In this document: positions 52,236 through 57,731 of the stretch, in pieces | How the letters are laid out: each line of letters opens with the position of its first letter | Numbering within the stretch: position 1 is the first letter of the stretch | Origin: Mesorhizobium sp. C432A | GTDB taxonomy: Bacteria > Pseudomonadota > Alphaproteobacteria > Rhizobiales > Rhizobiaceae | Direction: 5' to 3' | Assembly: GCF_030323145.1 (NCBI RefSeq) | Contig: NZ_CP100470.1 | Coordinates: 2,707,001 to 2,771,000 of the forward strand | DNA length: 64,000 bases | Translations under genes and position numbers: made by a program | The notes under the pieces: generated by a model | The model's input: only the letters and a program-made list of their open reading frames with translations | Database searches by the model: none | What the model was told of the DNA's origin: nothing

Positions 52236-53210
52236 ATGACCACCAAGCACGCGCCTGTCCTTATCATCGGTTCCGGCCCGGCCGGCTATACCGCCGCAGT
52301 ATACGCCGCGCGCGCCATGCTCAAGCCGATGCTCGTAGCAGGCTTGCAGCAGGGCGGGCAGCTGATGATCACCACCGATGTCGAAAACTATCCGGGCTTC
52401 GCCGATCCGATCCAGGGCCCGTGGCTGATGGAGCAGATGCTGAAGCAGGCCGAGCATGTCGGCACCGATATCATCAACGACATCATCACCGAGGTTGACC
52501 TCAATGTGCGGCCGTTCCGCGCCACGGGCGATTCCGGCACCACCTACACGGCCGACGCGCTGATCATTGCCACCGGCGCGCAGGCGAAATGGCTGGGCAT
52601 CCCCACCGAACAGACCTTCATGGGCTTCGGCGTGTCGGCCTGCGCCACCTGCGATGGTTTTTTCTATCGCGGCAAGGATGTCGCTGTCATCGGCGGCGGC
52701 AATTCGGCGGTGGAGGAGGCGCTCTATCTCTCCAATCTGGCGAAGAGCGTGACCGTCATCCACCGGCGCAACGATTTCCGCGCCGAGCGCATCCTGCGTG
52801 AGCGGCTGTTGAAAAAGGACAATGTCCGAGTCATCTGGGACACGATCGTCGACGAGATCACCGGCCGGCCCGGCAAGACGCCGCTGCCGCCTTCGGTCGA
52901 AGGGCTGAAGCTCAGAAATGCGGTGACCGGTGAGGTCACCCACCTCCAGGTGGACGGCGTCTTCGTGGCGATCGGCCATGCGCCGGCGGTGGAATTGTTT
53001 GTCGGCAAGCTGAAGCAGAAGCCGAACGGCTATCTGTGGACGGCGCCGAATTCGACCCGCACGGACGTTCCCGGCGTGTTCGCCGCCGGTGACGTGACCG
53101 ACGATATCTACCGTCAGGCGGTGACCGCCGCCGGGCTCGGCTGCATGGCCGCGCTCGAGGCGGAAAAATACCTGGCCGGCATCGAGGTGCACCGCGAAGC
53201 GGCGGAATAA
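52236..53210 (+). CDS. trxB: Thioredoxin-disulfide reductase
   Basis: A 324-residue flavoenzyme passing electrons from NADPH to thioredoxin. Seen: FAD-binding LIIGSGPAGYTAAVYAARA, redox-active CATC in VSACATCDGFFYRGKDVAVIGGGNSAVEEALYLS, the NADPH-binding GGGNSAVEEA, and the C-terminal FAD site VFAAGDVTDDIYRQAVTAAG. Length and motif order are canonical. It is followed by the LsrB-type regulator, and the pair together with the sRNA region forms an oxidative-stress-related neighbourhood. Confidence 0.96.
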   Translation: MTTKHAPVLIIGSGPAGYTAAVYAARAMLKPMLVAGLQQGGQLMITTDVENYPGFADPIQGPWLMEQMLKQAEHVGTDIINDIITEVDLNVRPFRATGDSGTTYTADALIIATGAQAKWLGIPTEQTFMGFGVSACATCDGFFYRGKDVAVIGGGNSAVEEALYLSNLAKSVTVIHRRNDFRAERILRERLLKKDNVRVIWDTIVDEITGRPGKTPLPPSVEGLKLRNAVTGEVTHLQVDGVFVAIGHAPAVELFVGKLKQKPNGYLWTAPNSTRTDVPGVFAAGDVTDDIYRQAVTAAGLGCMAALEAEKYLAGIEVHREAAE

Positions 53211-53290: not shown

Positions 53291-54187
53291 ATGGCGTTGG
53301 ACTGGGACAAGCTTCGCGTGTTTCACGCAGCGGCGGAGGCTGGGTCGTTTACCCATGCCGCCGAGACTTTGCACCTGTCGCAATCGGCGATTTCACGCCA
53401 GGTCAGCGCGCTCGAGCATGACGTCGGGGTGCCGCTTTTCAATCGCCATGCCCGCGGCCTGGTGCTGACCGAGCAGGGCGAAATGCTGTTCCGCACGGCG
53501 CATGACGTGCTGATGAAGCTGGAGACCATCAAGTCGAAGCTGACCGAGGCAAAGGACCGGCCCTCCGGCGTGCTGAGGGTAACGACCACCGTCGGGCTCG
53601 GCGCCGGCTGGCTGACCGAGCGGGTGCAGGAATTCATCGAGCTCTATCCGGAAATCAGCCTGCAGCTGATCCTGGCCAATGAGGAACTCGACCTCACCAT
53701 GCGTCAGGCCGACTGCGCGATACGGCTGCGCCAGCCGCAGCAGCCCGACCTTATCCAGCGCCGCCTGTTCACCGTGCATTTCCACCTCTATGCCTCGCCG
53801 TCCTATGTCGGCAAGCACGGCAAGCCGACCTCGGTCGCCGATCTGAAGAACCATCGCATTGTCACTTTCGGTGTGCCGGTGCCGTCGCATCTGTCGGAGC
53901 TGAACTGGCTGGAAACGATCGGCGATTTCGACGGTGGGCAAAGGGTGCCGACGCTGCAGATCAACGACATCTTGTCGATCAAGCGCGCCGTGCAGGGCGG
54001 CGCCGGCATCGCCATGCTGCCCGACTACGTGATCTCCAAGGAATCGGATCTGGTGCAGCTTTTGCCGGAGACCGAGGTGCCGTCCTTCGACACCTATTTC
54101 GCCTATCCCGATGCAATGAAGAACCAGGCCAAGCTGCACGTCTTCCGCGACTTCATCATCGCCAAAGCGCGCAGCTGGTCATTTTAA
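53291..54187 (+). CDS. lsrB: LysR-family regulator, LsrB/VtlR type
   Basis: A 298-residue LysR-type regulator closely resembling LsrB of Sinorhizobium (VtlR of Brucella/Agrobacterium), which activates the AbcR small RNAs and affects oxidative stress and symbiosis. Seen: N-terminal HTH DKLRVFHAAAEAGSFTHAAETLHLSQSAISRQVSALE, and an effector domain. Only one cysteine occurs (Cys142), whereas Sinorhizobium LsrB is reported to use several in redox sensing. trxB lies just upstream and an AbcR-like RNA with a LysR-type box lies about 800 bases downstream, exactly as in other rhizobia. Confidence 0.9.
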   Translation: MALDWDKLRVFHAAAEAGSFTHAAETLHLSQSAISRQVSALEHDVGVPLFNRHARGLVLTEQGEMLFRTAHDVLMKLETIKSKLTEAKDRPSGVLRVTTTVGLGAGWLTERVQEFIELYPEISLQLILANEELDLTMRQADCAIRLRQPQQPDLIQRRLFTVHFHLYASPSYVGKHGKPTSVADLKNHRIVTFGVPVPSHLSELNWLETIGDFDGGQRVPTLQINDILSIKRAVQGGAGIAMLPDYVISKESDLVQLLPETEVPSFDTYFAYPDAMKNQAKLHVFRDFIIAKARSWSF

Positions 54188-54209: not shown

Positions 54210-54707
54210 TCACCTCCGCCAAGGCGTCAGCCGTGGCAGCCAGCCGGGAACATTGCGGCGGTAGGTCTCGTATTCGCCACCGTAGCGGCGGGCGAGAGTC
54301 GGCTCCTCATAGAACCTGACGAAAGAGCCCATGACGATCGCGCCGATGGCGGCATAGGCAGCGACGCTCCAGCTTGAAAACAGCAACGCCTGGCCGAGGA
54401 TGATCGACAGCACGGCGACGTACATCGGGTTGCGGACATGGCGGTAGACGCCGCCGATCACCAGTCTCTCGGTGGGTGCTACAGGCGCCGGCGTGCCCAG
54501 GCCTTCGAGCGCGAAGCGGGCAAAGGAATGGACGAGCAGGGCGATGGCCGCGACGATCAGGAGGGAGCCAGCCGGCAAGAAGCCGGGCACCGTCGACAGC
54601 GGCAGACGGTAGCGGTCCGTCAGCAGCCAGGGCACCAGCCGGGCGACGACACAAGGTGCGGCGATGAAGAAGACCGCGCTGCCGGCGATCGCCTGAGGTG
54701 TCCGCAT
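54210..54707 (-). CDS. Isoprenylcysteine carboxyl methyltransferase-like membrane protein
   Basis: A 165-residue integral membrane protein of the ICMT/PEMT methyltransferase family. Seen: about four hydrophobic segments and the SAM-binding GGVYRHVRNPMYVAVLSIILGQALLF region, with FYEEPTLARRYGGEYETYRRNVPGWLP at the C-terminus, the family signature for binding S-adenosylmethionine. Bacterial members methylate lipids or small thiols, often unknown. GGGAG precedes the ATG at 54707. It lies between lsrB and the sRNA locus on the opposite strand. Confidence 0.82.
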   Translation of the reverse strand: MRTPQAIAGSAVFFIAAPCVVARLVPWLLTDRYRLPLSTVPGFLPAGSLLIVAAIALLVHSFARFALEGLGTPAPVAPTERLVIGGVYRHVRNPMYVAVLSIILGQALLFSSWSVAAYAAIGAIVMGSFVRFYEEPTLARRYGGEYETYRRNVPGWLPRLTPWRR

Positions 54708-54924
54708 GTCAGGTCTCCCTTCTTCCGGCCGACCCTTCCCATCCCGCTGCCGCAAAAATAAACGCCTGCTGCCCGATTCAACGTCATTCGGCTTTTTGCC
54801 CGCGAGCGCGAGAATCAGCCCGACTTGCGGTTCTGCGAAGGCAACAGCACGGTCGCGCTATTCATTTGGCAACTTTTCGTGGTCCTATGGCCCCTAGACA
54901 CGGGTTAGACCACAGCCTGTACCT
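54708..54924. other. Intergenic region upstream of the sRNA promoter
   Basis: About 217 bases between the methyltransferase start and the LysR-type box. It contains a GC-rich left part and no supportable gene. The sRNA regulatory sequence begins at 54925. Confidence 0.4.
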
Positions 54925-54947
54925 TTTTGCATGCGTGTGTTGCAAAA
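54925..54947 (+). promoter_or_regulatory. LysR-type binding box upstream of the sRNA
   Basis: TTTTGCA (54925-54931) and TGCAAAA (54941-54947) form a perfect inverted repeat with nine bases between, containing the T-N11-A pattern of LysR boxes. Its centre is about 54 bases upstream of the likely start of the AbcR-like RNA, the usual position for a LysR activator. LsrB encoded upstream is the obvious binder. Confidence 0.8.
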
Positions 54948-54954
54948 TAGATGC

Positions 54955-54983
54955 TTGTTTCTTGGGCATGAACAGCACATATA
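54955..54983 (+). promoter_or_regulatory. Likely promoter of the AbcR-like RNA
   Basis: TTGTTT (54955-54960) and CATATA (54978-54983), seventeen bases apart, make a fair -35/-10 pair placing transcription start near 54990. The alternative -10 TATATA at 54980-54985 gives a wide spacer. Confidence 0.55.
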
Positions 54984-54989
54984 TAGATC

Positions 54990-55104
54990 ATCTCCTGGGC
55001 GCGTTCTCCTCCCATTAGCGCCCTCGAGTGTTCCCCTCTGGAGGTTAGCCTTAACAGGCACTTCCAATCAAACTCAGCCGGATCTTCATTGATCCGGCTT
55101 TTTT
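54990..55104 (+). ncRNA. abcR: AbcR-like trans-acting small RNA (alpha-r15 family)
   Basis: A roughly 115-nt RNA gene. Seen: hairpin GGGCGC (54997-55002) with GCGCCC (55018-55023) whose 15-base loop holds CTCCTCCC, an anti-Shine-Dalgarno motif; an unpaired middle with CCCCTCTGGAGG; and a rho-independent terminator at 55076-55104. Size, exposed CUCCUCCC loop, terminator and position downstream of an LsrB-type gene are those of AbcR RNAs, Hfq-dependent repressors of ABC-transporter and other mRNAs. The LysR-type box and promoter upstream complete the unit. Exact ends are inferred. Confidence 0.82.
55076..55104 (+). terminator. Terminator of the AbcR-like RNA
   Basis: AGCCGGATC (55076-55084) pairs perfectly with GATCCGGCT (55091-55099) across TTCATT, followed by TTTTT and further Ts. 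Confidence 0.93.
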
Positions 55105-55295
55105 GTTTCCGGGCCTGCCGTAGCCAGCGAAAAATCGAGCAAAATCGCCGCGTAACAGTGACATGTAACCTCAGGTAACATGCCGCAGGCGCGATTCATC
55201 GTTTAAGCAGATCATAGGACGCGGTGTGGTTCGACCGGGAGATGGGGGCATCACTCGGAAGATCCGGGCTCAGGCGGCTACCGCGTCCGAACCTA
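55105..55295. other. Intergenic region between the two RNA candidates
   Basis: About 190 bases with no supportable coding frame. It contains the near-repeats GTAACAGTGACATGTAAC and CAGGTAACATGC and a GC-rich right half that should carry the promoter of the second RNA candidate. I see no LysR-type box in it. Confidence 0.4.
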
Positions 55296-55410
55296 TTCGT
55301 CTGCCAGTGCCGTATGGCGCGGCGGATACGTGCGGCGGACCTGCCGTTTTCCTCCCAAGAAGACGGTCCGCAATAAGAGCGGCGTCCGGATCATCCGGGC
55401 GCCGTTTTTT
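55296..55410 (+). ncRNA. Candidate second small RNA with exposed CUCCC loop
   Basis: Downstream of the AbcR-like gene a hairpin CCGTTTTC / GAAGACGG (about 55344-55366) exposes CTCCCAA, followed by a strong terminator GGCGTCCGGA / TCCGGGCGCC (55381-55403) with a T-run. The 5' end is set at about 55296 only by analogy to the 115-nt size of the first RNA; no convincing promoter was identified. In Sinorhizobium and Agrobacterium two AbcR RNAs lie in tandem, so this may be the second copy. Confidence 0.48.
55381..55410 (+). terminator. Terminator of second RNA candidate
   Basis: GGCGTCCGGA (55381-55390) pairs with TCCGGGCGCC (55394-55403), one G-T wobble, followed by GTTTTTT. It reads on the plus strand while the adjacent gene is on the minus, so it must end something transcribed from the left. 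Confidence 0.85.
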
Positions 55411-55432
55411 GTGCGGATCATCCTTCGGCCTG

Positions 55433-57484
55433 TCAGGCAGCCTTGCCGTTGGCGTTCATCGCCTCGTCGGCCAACCGTCCGGTCAGCTCGGCCATGTGAT
55501 CGAAGGCGCAACGATAGCTGGCGACGCCGGAGGTCGCCGAGCGCAGTTCGACGATCAGGTCGCCGATCTCGGCCTGCGGCATGGTCGCCTCCACGACATC
55601 CCATCCCGGCCAGTCAGGCCGCGCGTCGTAGCCAAGGATCTGACCGCGCCGTTGCGGGATCAGCGCAATGATCTTCGAAGTGGCTTCGGACGGCGTGACG
55701 ATCTCGACCTTCATGACCGGCTCGAGCAGCACCGGCGAGCAGGCCGCCATGCCTTCCTTCATGGCCAGCTTGGCCGCCATCTGGAAAGCCATGTCGGAGG
55801 AATCGACGGCGTGGTAGGAGCCGTCGGAGAGGTTGACGGCGACATCGACGACAGGGAAGCCGAGCGGGCCGGATTTCAGATAATCGCGCACGCCGGTTTC
55901 GACCGACTGGATGTAGGTCTTGGGCACGACGCCGCCGGTGATGGTGTCCGAGAACTGAAAGCCGGAGCCGCGCGGCAGCGGCTTGATCTCGATCACCACA
56001 TCGCCGAACTGGCCATGGCCGCCGGACTGCTTCTTGTGGCGGCCGCGCTGCTGGACCGTCTTTCGGATCGTCTCGCGATAGGGGACGGCAGGCGCATGGC
56101 CTTCGACCGGAATCTGATTCTTGCCTTCCAGCCGCTCGCGCACGACCCGCAGATGCATCTCGCCATGGCCGGACAGCACGGTCTCGGCCGAGTCCTGGTT
56201 GTGGCGCAAGGTGAGCGAGGGATCTTCCTCGGCCAGGCGCTGGATGGCCGCCGACATTTTGACCTCGTCCTTGCGCTCCTTCGGCCGCAGGGCAAAGGCA
56301 AAGACCGGCTGCGGCGGCGTCAGCGTGACCAGCGGCTTGATACCGCCCTTCGTGGAGCTCAACGTCTGGCCGGTCTTGACCTCGTCCAGCTTGCCCAACG
56401 CCACCGTGTCGCCGGCCTTGGCAGCGGTGAGCTTGGACTGGTCCTTTCCGAGCATCTTGTAGATGCCGGAGACCTTCGCCGTCTCGCCATTCGACAAATA
56501 GAGTTCGGCTGCATCGGCGATCTGGCCGGAGAGTACGCGCGACACGGACAGCTTGCCGCCATGCGCGGTGTGGATGGTCTTCATCACCTGGACCACGGTG
56601 TGATTGCCGTCGGGGACGCCGAGCCGTTTGCGCGTCGCCTCGACATCCGGTGCGTCATGGCGGATCGCCTTCAAAAGGCGCAGCACGCCGTTGCCTTTTT
56701 CGGCGGTGCCGATCAGCACCGGCGTTATGGCGCCGGCGCGCAGGTCGGCGGACAGATCGTCGAAAACCGCGTCTTTCGGCGGCTCGATCTCCTCCAGCAA
56801 CTGCTCCATCAACTGGTCGTCATGGTCGGCAAGCGTCTCCAGCATGGAGAAGCGAGCCTCCAGTTCGCGCGCCTTGTCGTCAGTTGGAATTTCGGCAACC
56901 TGGCTTTCGGCATATTCGCGGTAGATGTAGGCGCGCTCCAGCGCCAGGTCGATCGAACCGATCACCACATTGTCCTTGCGCAGCGGAATCTGGCGCAGCA
57001 ACAGCGGCGCCGCGCTCGTCGGCTGCAGCATCTTCAGCGTATCGCGTACGCCGGCGATTGCCTTGTCGACCTTGTTGAGGAACAGGATGCGCGGCACGCC
57101 GAGATCGTCGAGCTTGCGCATGATGAGCTGCAAGGCTGGGATCTTCTTCTCGTCGGCCTCGGCGACGACCACCGCGAGATCGCAGGCTGCCAGCACCGGC
57201 TCGGCCTCGAAGGAGAATTCGATCGATCCGGGACAGTCGACGAAGGTGATCTGCTCGCCCATGAATTCGGTGGTGGCAAAGGTCGCCTCGACGCTCATGG
57301 CGTGCGCCCGCGCCTCGGGCGAATGATCGGAAACGGTGCTTCCCGATGAAACGGGATTTTGGCGGGGGATGGCGCCCGTACGGGCGAGGATGGCTTCGAG
57401 AAGTGTCGTCTTACCGCTTGCAAAGGGACCGACTATGGCAATGCATTTCGGTCCCGTGCGTCGTCCTCCGGCGCGAGTACCCAT
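55433..57484 (-). CDS. Divergent elongation factor G-like GTPase
   Basis: A 683-residue EF-G-type translational GTPase paralogue. Seen: P-loop GPFASGKTTL, switch II VDCPGSIEF, NKVD guanine-specificity motif, then EF-G domains II to V (GKLSVSRVLSG; ITPVLIGTAEKGNG; RGRHKKQSGGHGQFGDV; GWDVVEATMP). The switch I segment GSTVSDHSPEARAHAMSVEA lacks the RGIT-type Thr that normal EF-G uses for GTP hydrolysis. It is therefore probably a specialised EF-G rather than the housekeeping FusA. ATG at 57484 has no preceding S12/S7 genes, unlike a housekeeping fusA. Role unknown. Confidence 0.85.
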   Translation of the reverse strand: MGTRAGGRRTGPKCIAIVGPFASGKTTLLEAILARTGAIPRQNPVSSGSTVSDHSPEARAHAMSVEATFATTEFMGEQITFVDCPGSIEFSFEAEPVLAACDLAVVVAEADEKKIPALQLIMRKLDDLGVPRILFLNKVDKAIAGVRDTLKMLQPTSAAPLLLRQIPLRKDNVVIGSIDLALERAYIYREYAESQVAEIPTDDKARELEARFSMLETLADHDDQLMEQLLEEIEPPKDAVFDDLSADLRAGAITPVLIGTAEKGNGVLRLLKAIRHDAPDVEATRKRLGVPDGNHTVVQVMKTIHTAHGGKLSVSRVLSGQIADAAELYLSNGETAKVSGIYKMLGKDQSKLTAAKAGDTVALGKLDEVKTGQTLSSTKGGIKPLVTLTPPQPVFAFALRPKERKDEVKMSAAIQRLAEEDPSLTLRHNQDSAETVLSGHGEMHLRVVRERLEGKNQIPVEGHAPAVPYRETIRKTVQQRGRHKKQSGGHGQFGDVVIEIKPLPRGSGFQFSDTITGGVVPKTYIQSVETGVRDYLKSGPLGFPVVDVAVNLSDGSYHAVDSSDMAFQMAAKLAMKEGMAACSPVLLEPVMKVEIVTPSEATSKIIALIPQRRGQILGYDARPDWPGWDVVEATMPQAEIGDLIVELRSATSGVASYRCAFDHMAELTGRLADEAMNANGKAA

Positions 57485-57731
57485 GGCTGACCTCCACTCA
57501 GGCTTGGCCCTTGGAGTGCGATCAGCAAAAGTGGAAACGGTTTTGCGCCGATCGCACCCTGTCGTGAGCGGCGGCCGGCCTGTTCGACCGTCGCGGGGCG
57601 GGGTTGTTTCTCTTAGCCACCTGCCCAAGCCCATCGTCCCACGGGTTAGCCGGCAGGGCAAGGAAAATAGGAATCCGGTGCGCCGTCAGGCGGCCGAGGC
57701 AAGACCCCGGGATCAGAACCGTCCGGCGATT

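Follow-up and report, generated by a model that had tools for sequence, protein, structure and literature searches.

The window, which is the whole 64,000-nucleotide stretch of Mesorhizobium sp. C432A DNA that was analysed, contains in order a trxB-like gene, lsrB, a PEMT-type methyltransferase gene, the small RNA gene abcR1, a second RNA-like element (RNA2) and an EF-G-like gene (Table 1). A cmscan search at gathering thresholds finds a single RNA in the 64 kb, a member of the ar15 family (RF02345), with a score that is modest (44.8 against a cut-off of 40 bits) and a match that covers the model from end to end (1-112 of 112). The first-pass annotation, made from the DNA letters, had described an AbcR-type RNA gene of 115 nt with a promoter, an exposed loop and a rho-independent terminator, and each of these elements was recovered: the full-length ar15 match exceeds the cut-off and spans exactly 115 nt, CUCCUCCC lies inside the 15-nt apical loop of the predicted fold, and the terminator stem (55076-55099) is followed by T. 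The predicted promoter, for which an E. coli-type scan of abcR1 returned nothing, has the alphaproteobacterial form CTTGTT-N17-ACATAT, ends 7 nt before the predicted start at 54990, and was compared with the CTTGAC-N17-CTATAT promoter given in the excerpted text of PMC8844928. The predicted fold of AbcR1 consists of three hairpins (-46.2 kcal/mol, z -6.27) and is equalled by 0 of 200 shuffles; the two features that mark ar15 members, the linker UUCCCCUCUGGAGGUU and a three-hairpin fold with an anti-Shine-Dalgarno loop, are both present. In function, the family is characterised by repression of ABC-transporter mRNAs that depends on Hfq.

Table 1. Features of the lsrB-abcR1-RNA2 locus (positions within the window)
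Feature	Position	Strand	Basis
trxB-like thioredoxin reductase gene	52236..53210	+	Pfam Pyr_redox_2, 168.9 bits; name after PMC11975290
lsrB/vtlR ortholog, LysR-type, 298 aa, one cysteine	53291..54187	+	Pfam HTH_1 and LysR_substrate; PDB 9hh1
Methyltransferase-like gene (PEMT/ICMT) between lsrB and abcR1	54210..54755	-	Pfam PEMT, 54.3 bits
Predicted LsrB/VtlR box, perfect inverted repeat TTTTGCA-N9-TGCAAAA, -65 to -43	54925..54947	+	Sequence, conservation
Published LsrB consensus GCAT-N3-TG-N3-T (GCATGCGTGTGTT), -61 to -49	54929..54941	+	Sequence, published motif
Predicted -35 CTTGTT and -10 ACATAT of abcR1, 17-nt spacer	54954..54982	+	Motif comparison
abcR1 (ar15) small RNA gene	54990..55104	+	Rfam RF02345, 44.8 bits
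Anti-Shine-Dalgarno CUCCUCCC in 15-nt apical loop of AbcR1 stem 1	55006..55013	+	Sequence, fold
abcR1 intrinsic terminator	55076..55104	+	Stem 55076-55099, then T
Triple GTAAC direct repeat (55152, 55165, 55175), putative activator box of RNA2	55152..55179	+	Sequence, conservation
RNA2, candidate second small RNA, below every Rfam cut-off	~55213..55410	+	Model R1, covariation
RNA2 stem-loop 1, GGACGCGGT/ACCGCGTCC around core GATGGGGGCATC	55217..55288	+	Fold, alignment
RNA2 third hairpin GCGGACC...GGTCCGC, CCTCCC (55351-55356) in loop	55335..55371	+	Fold, alignment
RNA2 terminator-like hairpin and T run	55379..55410	+	Fold; 9 of 14 pairs changed on both sides
EF-G-like gene, convergent flank	55433..57661	-	Pfam EFG domains

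Matches to ar15 were found in all 61 genus genomes searched and in 114 of 151 family genomes (99 of those above the cut-off). In the excerpted text of the M. huakuii 7653R sRNA paper, AbcR1/2 are described as not discovered in 7653R. The presence of AbcR in Mesorhizobium is nevertheless not counted as new, since M. loti MAFF303099 is named in a supporting-figure legend of the AbcR comparison in the excerpts of PMC3712013.

The regulator gene upstream encodes a protein with LysR HTH and effector domains, preceded by the trxB-like gene, that matches PDB entry 9hh1 end to end (477 bits, E 1.2e-142). The label of this entry states only the LysR family, and 9hh1 is taken here to be A. tumefaciens LsrB because its cysteines (144, 236, 244 and 273) carry the numbers given for that protein. 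According to excerpts of PMC11975290, lsrB is consistently found in an operon with trxB in Rhizobiales, C144 and C273 are conserved among the proteins of A. tumefaciens, S. meliloti and B. abortus, and the C273S substitution raised sensitivity to H2O2 while sensitivity to paraquat and ampicillin was unaffected; C144S was without effect by itself. Of these positions, the window protein has a cysteine only at the equivalent of 144, with alanine in place of C273 and no cysteine at the equivalents of 236 and 244. Among the lsrB-picked loci (the best 80 of 386 relatives, L123-L202), a single cysteine, at 142, is present in LsrB of 80 of 80, as is alanine at the C273 place (79 by pattern, L161 by eye). 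The cysteine pair is thus missing, and the C144-C273 disulfide cannot form in these proteins. The ortholog name LsrB is kept on the basis of full-length similarity and locus order; judged from the sequence, the redox mechanism does not carry over.

The first-pass annotation had also placed a regulator and its small RNA side by side and named the regulator as the likely activator. The downstream position of abcR1 relative to lsrB stands, while adjacency does not, as the abcR1 start lies 802 nt past the lsrB stop with the opposite-strand methyltransferase gene intervening. The proposed activator is an LsrB ortholog by sequence and by the published trxB-lsrB order, and would be expected to activate abcR1 here. 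The arrangement recurs within the genus: an abcR linker lies 3' of lsrB on the same strand in 79 of the 80 lsrB-picked loci (best 80 of 386), with no abcR linker within 3 kb after lsrB in L160, and in a second genus set (58 copies, comprising the window and 57 from other genus genomes) all 57 of the latter have an LsrB match 5' of abcR and on its strand.

The inverted repeat upstream of abcR1

A TTTTGCA/TGCAAAA inverted repeat about 54 bases upstream of the start, proposed in the first-pass annotation as its own reading of an activator site, is confirmed in position (centre at -54 relative to 54990) and agrees with the literature, since the published LsrB/VtlR consensus sits inside it at exactly the published location. 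In the excerpts of PMC8844928, the GCAT-N3-TG-N3-T consensus of S. meliloti PabcR1 lies between -61 and -49, removal of that part of the promoter led to a more than 22-fold drop, gel shift demonstrated LsrB binding to PabcR1, and an lsrB mutant had no detectable AbcR1. The excerpts of PMC7486931 contradict PMC8844928 on this point: abcR of S. meliloti was not controlled by LsrB under the conditions used there. For A. tumefaciens the same excerpts report VtlR (LsrB) binding to PabcR1 by gel shift and a 15-bp shared motif. As a dyad alone, the repeat is unremarkable, given that 158 perfect inverted repeats with 7-bp arms and 3-12 nt between them occur in the window, and its significance derives from conservation across the genus loci. 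All 79 lsrB-picked loci with abcR keep the perfect repeat, and 70 of the 79 keep the published consensus, its TG being lost in the other nine (best 80 of 386 relatives). The corresponding counts in the second genus set are 57 and 54 of 58. The two sets overlap (29 lsrB-picked stretches are identical to one in the second set); merged, they give 104 distinct 100-nt upstream stretches, in which the perfect repeat is kept better than the consensus (103 versus 94).

The TG of the published consensus is therefore not always kept, and a wider comparison, over the distinct upstream regions of every type of abcR copy, points the same way. GCA-N9-TGC occurs in 161 of 204 such regions (0.8% of mono-shuffles) and GCAT-N3-TG-N3-T in 132 of 204 (0.9% of mono-shuffles), with 109 versus 100 of 133 regions in the genus and 52 versus 32 of 71 in other genera. 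Because it fits more abcR upstream regions, the symmetric dyad GCA-N9-TGC is the better description of the site; it is drawn from 204 regions, whereas the A. tumefaciens motif, in the excerpts of PMC7486931, came from aligning two promoters plus one further match. A genome-wide search for TGCAT-N3-TG-N3-TGCA gave four matches (reversed control, 0). The three besides abcR1 all lack the TTTT/AAAA arms and lie inside a large ORF, about 90 nt before a transporter-like gene, and overlapping several predicted ORFs; the second of these (L229, G000:C1:2627316-2627332, minus strand) is a possible further LsrB target.

Boxes of LysR-type regulators resemble each other and LsrB binding in the genus is a prediction, so another regulator of this type could in principle occupy the dyad; this is unlikely, however, given that both the sequence and the position of the published LsrB/VtlR consensus are found within it and that abcR follows lsrB in nearly all of the lsrB-picked loci. 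LsrB is thus the favoured owner of the site. It would most likely bind the dyad at -65 to -43 and recruit sigma-70 RNA polymerase to the CTTG-type promoter, yielding the 115-nt AbcR1. As its counterparts do in S. meliloti and A. tumefaciens, AbcR1 would most likely use the CUCCUCCC loop to keep ribosomes from binding transporter mRNAs.

Besides abcR1, the genome contains one other ar15 gene (C1:5763247-5763342), which is unlinked and lies about 3 Mb away on the chromosome. Among unlinked genus copies (26 loci, of which L056 was dropped for want of an exact linker, leaving 25), the dyad occurs in one and GCAT-N3-TG-N3-T somewhere in 150 nt in two, indicating that as a rule only the lsrB-linked abcR has the LsrB box. 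A common conserved promoter block, GTTCGT(C/G)(C/G), precedes 17 of the 25 (L002 and 16 further loci), and two (L049 and L051) match the RpoH-like promoter pattern GTTGAAACGTC...CCCATAT that distinguishes another type of abcR, to which L040 and L047 were assigned by eye. Three genus genomes (G165, G168 and G180) contain an additional ar15 copy on a separate contig (L033, L034 and L035; 99.5-108.8 bits), possibly acquired from another genus; L033 has an LsrB box, and no exact copy of the linker is present in L034 or L035.

A second RNA-like element behind abcR1

In the alignment of the 58 genus copies a conserved island lies 3' of abcR1. It corresponds to RNA2, which starts about 110 nt past abcR1, outside the interval covered by the first-pass annotation, and which has one match, and hence a single copy, in the genome of the window. 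RNA2 has a 9-bp closed stem around GATGGGGGCATC, followed by a variable part, the third hairpin and the GC-rich terminator-like hairpin; from the first stem to the T run it measures 161-230 nt in the 30 loci with a recognised end. The terminator-like hairpin was not listed by the mechanical terminator scan. Both the core and the GTAAC triple upstream of it are found in 58 of 58 genus copies of the second set and in 78 of 78 lsrB-picked loci with at least 300 nt behind abcR1, 75 of which also contain the start of the third hairpin (best 80 of 386 relatives). Across 37 loci, the third hairpin region keeps CTCCC in 33 and CCTCCC in 30, four being without CTCCC. Among the 19 second-RNA loci read, one (L219) has neither the closing arm of the third hairpin nor the T run.

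A covariance model of the first stem (R1), built from 18 sequences (alignment A1, 18 of 53 distinct genus sequences), matches 22 of 247 family genomes in 11 of 109 genera, with E from 9.6e-4 to 5.8e-19; 4 of these belong to the genus and 18 to 10 other genera. In an order-wide draw of 199 genomes, the only matches were four genus members. These counts come under the stricter filters that apply to R1 scans of more than 40 genomes, in which weak matches are lost. An abcR linker (TTCCCCTCTG) lies 5' of RNA2 on the same strand within 1.5 kb in 22 of 22 R1-positive genomes. In the 18 loci from other genera, the flank contains LsrB in 16 (the exceptions being L212 and L219) and a methyltransferase match in 9. 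At L218 (G064), RNA2 is preceded by three consecutive abcR linkers, and one of the three lacks the dyad.

Covariation was assessed in two alignments of 24 rows each from the 37 loci, A3 (first stem) and A2 (third hairpin and terminator), with rows chosen for spread and, in A2, also for a recognisable end, so that L219 is in A3 and not in A2. Every row of A1, A2 and A3 (18, 24 and 24) agreed with its source locus at each letter. In each alignment 9 of 21 pairs show changes on both sides. A3 has 25 such cells, compared with 9.6 for shuffled and no more than 12 for slid versions, and A2 has 23, compared with 5.3 and no more than 6. These figures are not probabilities, since the rows are related and each structure was itself predicted from the alignment used to assess it. 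No shuffle attains the observed A2 value on any of five measures, and 4 of 500 attain one of the five in A3. All nine both-sided pairs of A2 are in the terminator-like hairpin, and the third hairpin stem varies on one side only. A coding function was considered and rejected: the ORF from the ATG of RNA2 ranges from 6 to 149 codons in 36 loci with no reading frame kept, and the spacing between the first and third hairpins is spread over the three frames (15, 11 and 10 of the 36). RNA2 is structured and non-coding.

The region upstream of RNA2 contains direct GTAAC repeats at a nearly fixed distance from the first stem. Three copies are present in 24 of 28 loci and two in the remaining 4; in 20 of the 28 they stand at -64 to -66, -51 to -53 and -41 to -43 before the stem, and in 4 more the triple is kept with small position shifts. 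This geometry would suit a direct-repeat activator of the OmpR kind. GTAAC-N5-GTAAC did not serve as a regulon marker, having only two genome matches (the other one overlapping the 3' end of a predicted ORF) against 6 for the reversed control. ChvI and CenR were rejected as owners of the box, as their motifs in the excerpted literature differ; those of ChvI in the excerpts of PMC9731502 (TTGC-N3-GCAA, and N-GCC-N8-GCC in S. meliloti) are unlike the GTAAC repeats.

The conserved stretch 55142-55410 abuts the stop side of the EF-G-like gene (55433). In 13 of the 18 loci from other genera, the flank 3' of RNA2 contains an EF-G match. The stretch might accordingly be a control or terminator region of this convergent gene and contain no separate RNA. 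That reading is improbable, because RNA2 and its box are kept in five loci without EF-G in the flank (L212, L216, L221, which has a shorter flank, L223 and L225), the T run is on the plus strand, opposite to the EF-G-like gene, and the GTAAC box keeps its distance to RNA2.

Taking RNA2 as an RNA unit in its own right, its relation to known families was examined at the level of Rfam 15, in which nothing matches at cut-off. The best weak matches are Scr1601 (26.8 of the required 100 bits), ar14 (20.3 of 58.8), RcsR1 (18.6 of 60) and CcsR1 (18.2 of 65.3), those to ar14 (NfeR1) and CcsR1 lying over RNA2 hairpins and far below the cut-offs for membership. Anti-Shine-Dalgarno loops occur in both of these families. 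The location directly behind abcR1, the CCUCCC loop and the terminator-like end are also what would be expected of a highly diverged AbcR2, the RNA found in tandem with AbcR1 in Sinorhizobium. Such an origin is quite unlikely, however, as RNA2 in the window lacks the UUCCCCUCUG linker, abcR1 is the sole ar15 match in 54750-55450 at E up to 5, and a separate second ar15 copy exists elsewhere in the genome. A further proposal, that RNA2 is a decoy capturing AbcR1, starts from its GGGAGAUGGGGG core, which looks like a Shine-Dalgarno sequence and might form a duplex with the loop of AbcR1 (-15.7 kcal/mol for the two sequence excerpts, uncontrolled). It is very unlikely and was rejected, since 180 of 200 mono-shuffles give a whole-molecule duplex with AbcR1 as good or better.

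A separate, independent RNA2 was not found in the literature searched, with subscription papers and supplements outside the search. By the strands of their flanks, two unannotated candidates of the M. huakuii 7653R catalogue (MH_s25 and MH_s39) would fit, and both were rejected on gene order. All 15 complete genomes compared have abcR1 on the strand of the speF RNA and 238-599 kb downstream of it, so that abcR1 is expected at 3.75-4.11 Mb in 7653R if the same order holds there, and Table 1 of the 7653R paper, as excerpted, has nothing between 3491875 and 4347901. In 14 of these genomes (G153 differs) the best suhB match is on the strand opposite to speF and 50-64 kb ahead of it, which is also the arrangement in 7653R. 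RNA2 is most likely absent from the M. huakuii list of 40 candidates, on the assumption that 7653R shares this gene order.

Interpretation and significance of the locus

The locus very likely represents the Mesorhizobium lsrB-abcR1 module with a second, independent RNA unit directly behind it. The lsrB-abcR1 part is a new member of a known module, LsrB activation of abcR1 being established in Sinorhizobium and Agrobacterium. As described in excerpts of PMC8844928 and PMC3712013, AbcR1 of S. meliloti (alpha-r15C1, with AbcR2 as alpha-r15C2) is likewise in the intergenic region adjoining lsrB, and that locus shares with the window the LsrB motif at -61 to -49, a CTTG-type sigma-70 promoter and anti-Shine-Dalgarno loops. 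The two loci differ in that S. meliloti has AbcR2 in tandem, with an RpoH1 promoter, whereas in Mesorhizobium a different RNA-like element takes the tandem place; the second ar15 of Mesorhizobium, unlike AbcR2, lies far from the first, lacks the LsrB box and in most copies has a different promoter block. The locus is thus a variant, with AbcR1 under the predicted control of LsrB, the other AbcR elsewhere, and a conserved RNA-like unit in tandem.

For RNA2, an activator reading the three GTAAC repeats (at about -65, -52 and -42) would most likely drive a structured non-coding RNA of ~160-230 nt that ends at an intrinsic terminator and exposes a CCUCCC loop of its own. Given this exposed loop, RNA2 is most likely also a trans-acting anti-Shine-Dalgarno RNA. 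A parallel for an sRNA under a two-component response regulator is the ChvI-activated ChvR of Caulobacter (excerpts of PMC9731502). RNA2 probably constitutes an undescribed family of trans-acting sRNAs, in fixed tandem with LsrB-controlled AbcR1 in at least 11 genera and with a GTAAC-reading activator.

If this is true, two anti-Shine-Dalgarno RNAs would be placed under two different sensors at one locus. The AbcR1 part extends the well-studied regulator-sRNA pair to Mesorhizobium, where, according to the excerpted text of a published sRNA catalogue, it had yet to be discovered, and the symmetric definition of the box, GCA-N9-TGC, accounts for a larger number of promoters than the consensus now in use. 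That Mesorhizobium LsrB has lost the second cysteine brings into question the generality of the LsrB disulfide model. RNA2, if transcribed, would be a new sRNA family that comes with a ready-made regulatory box.
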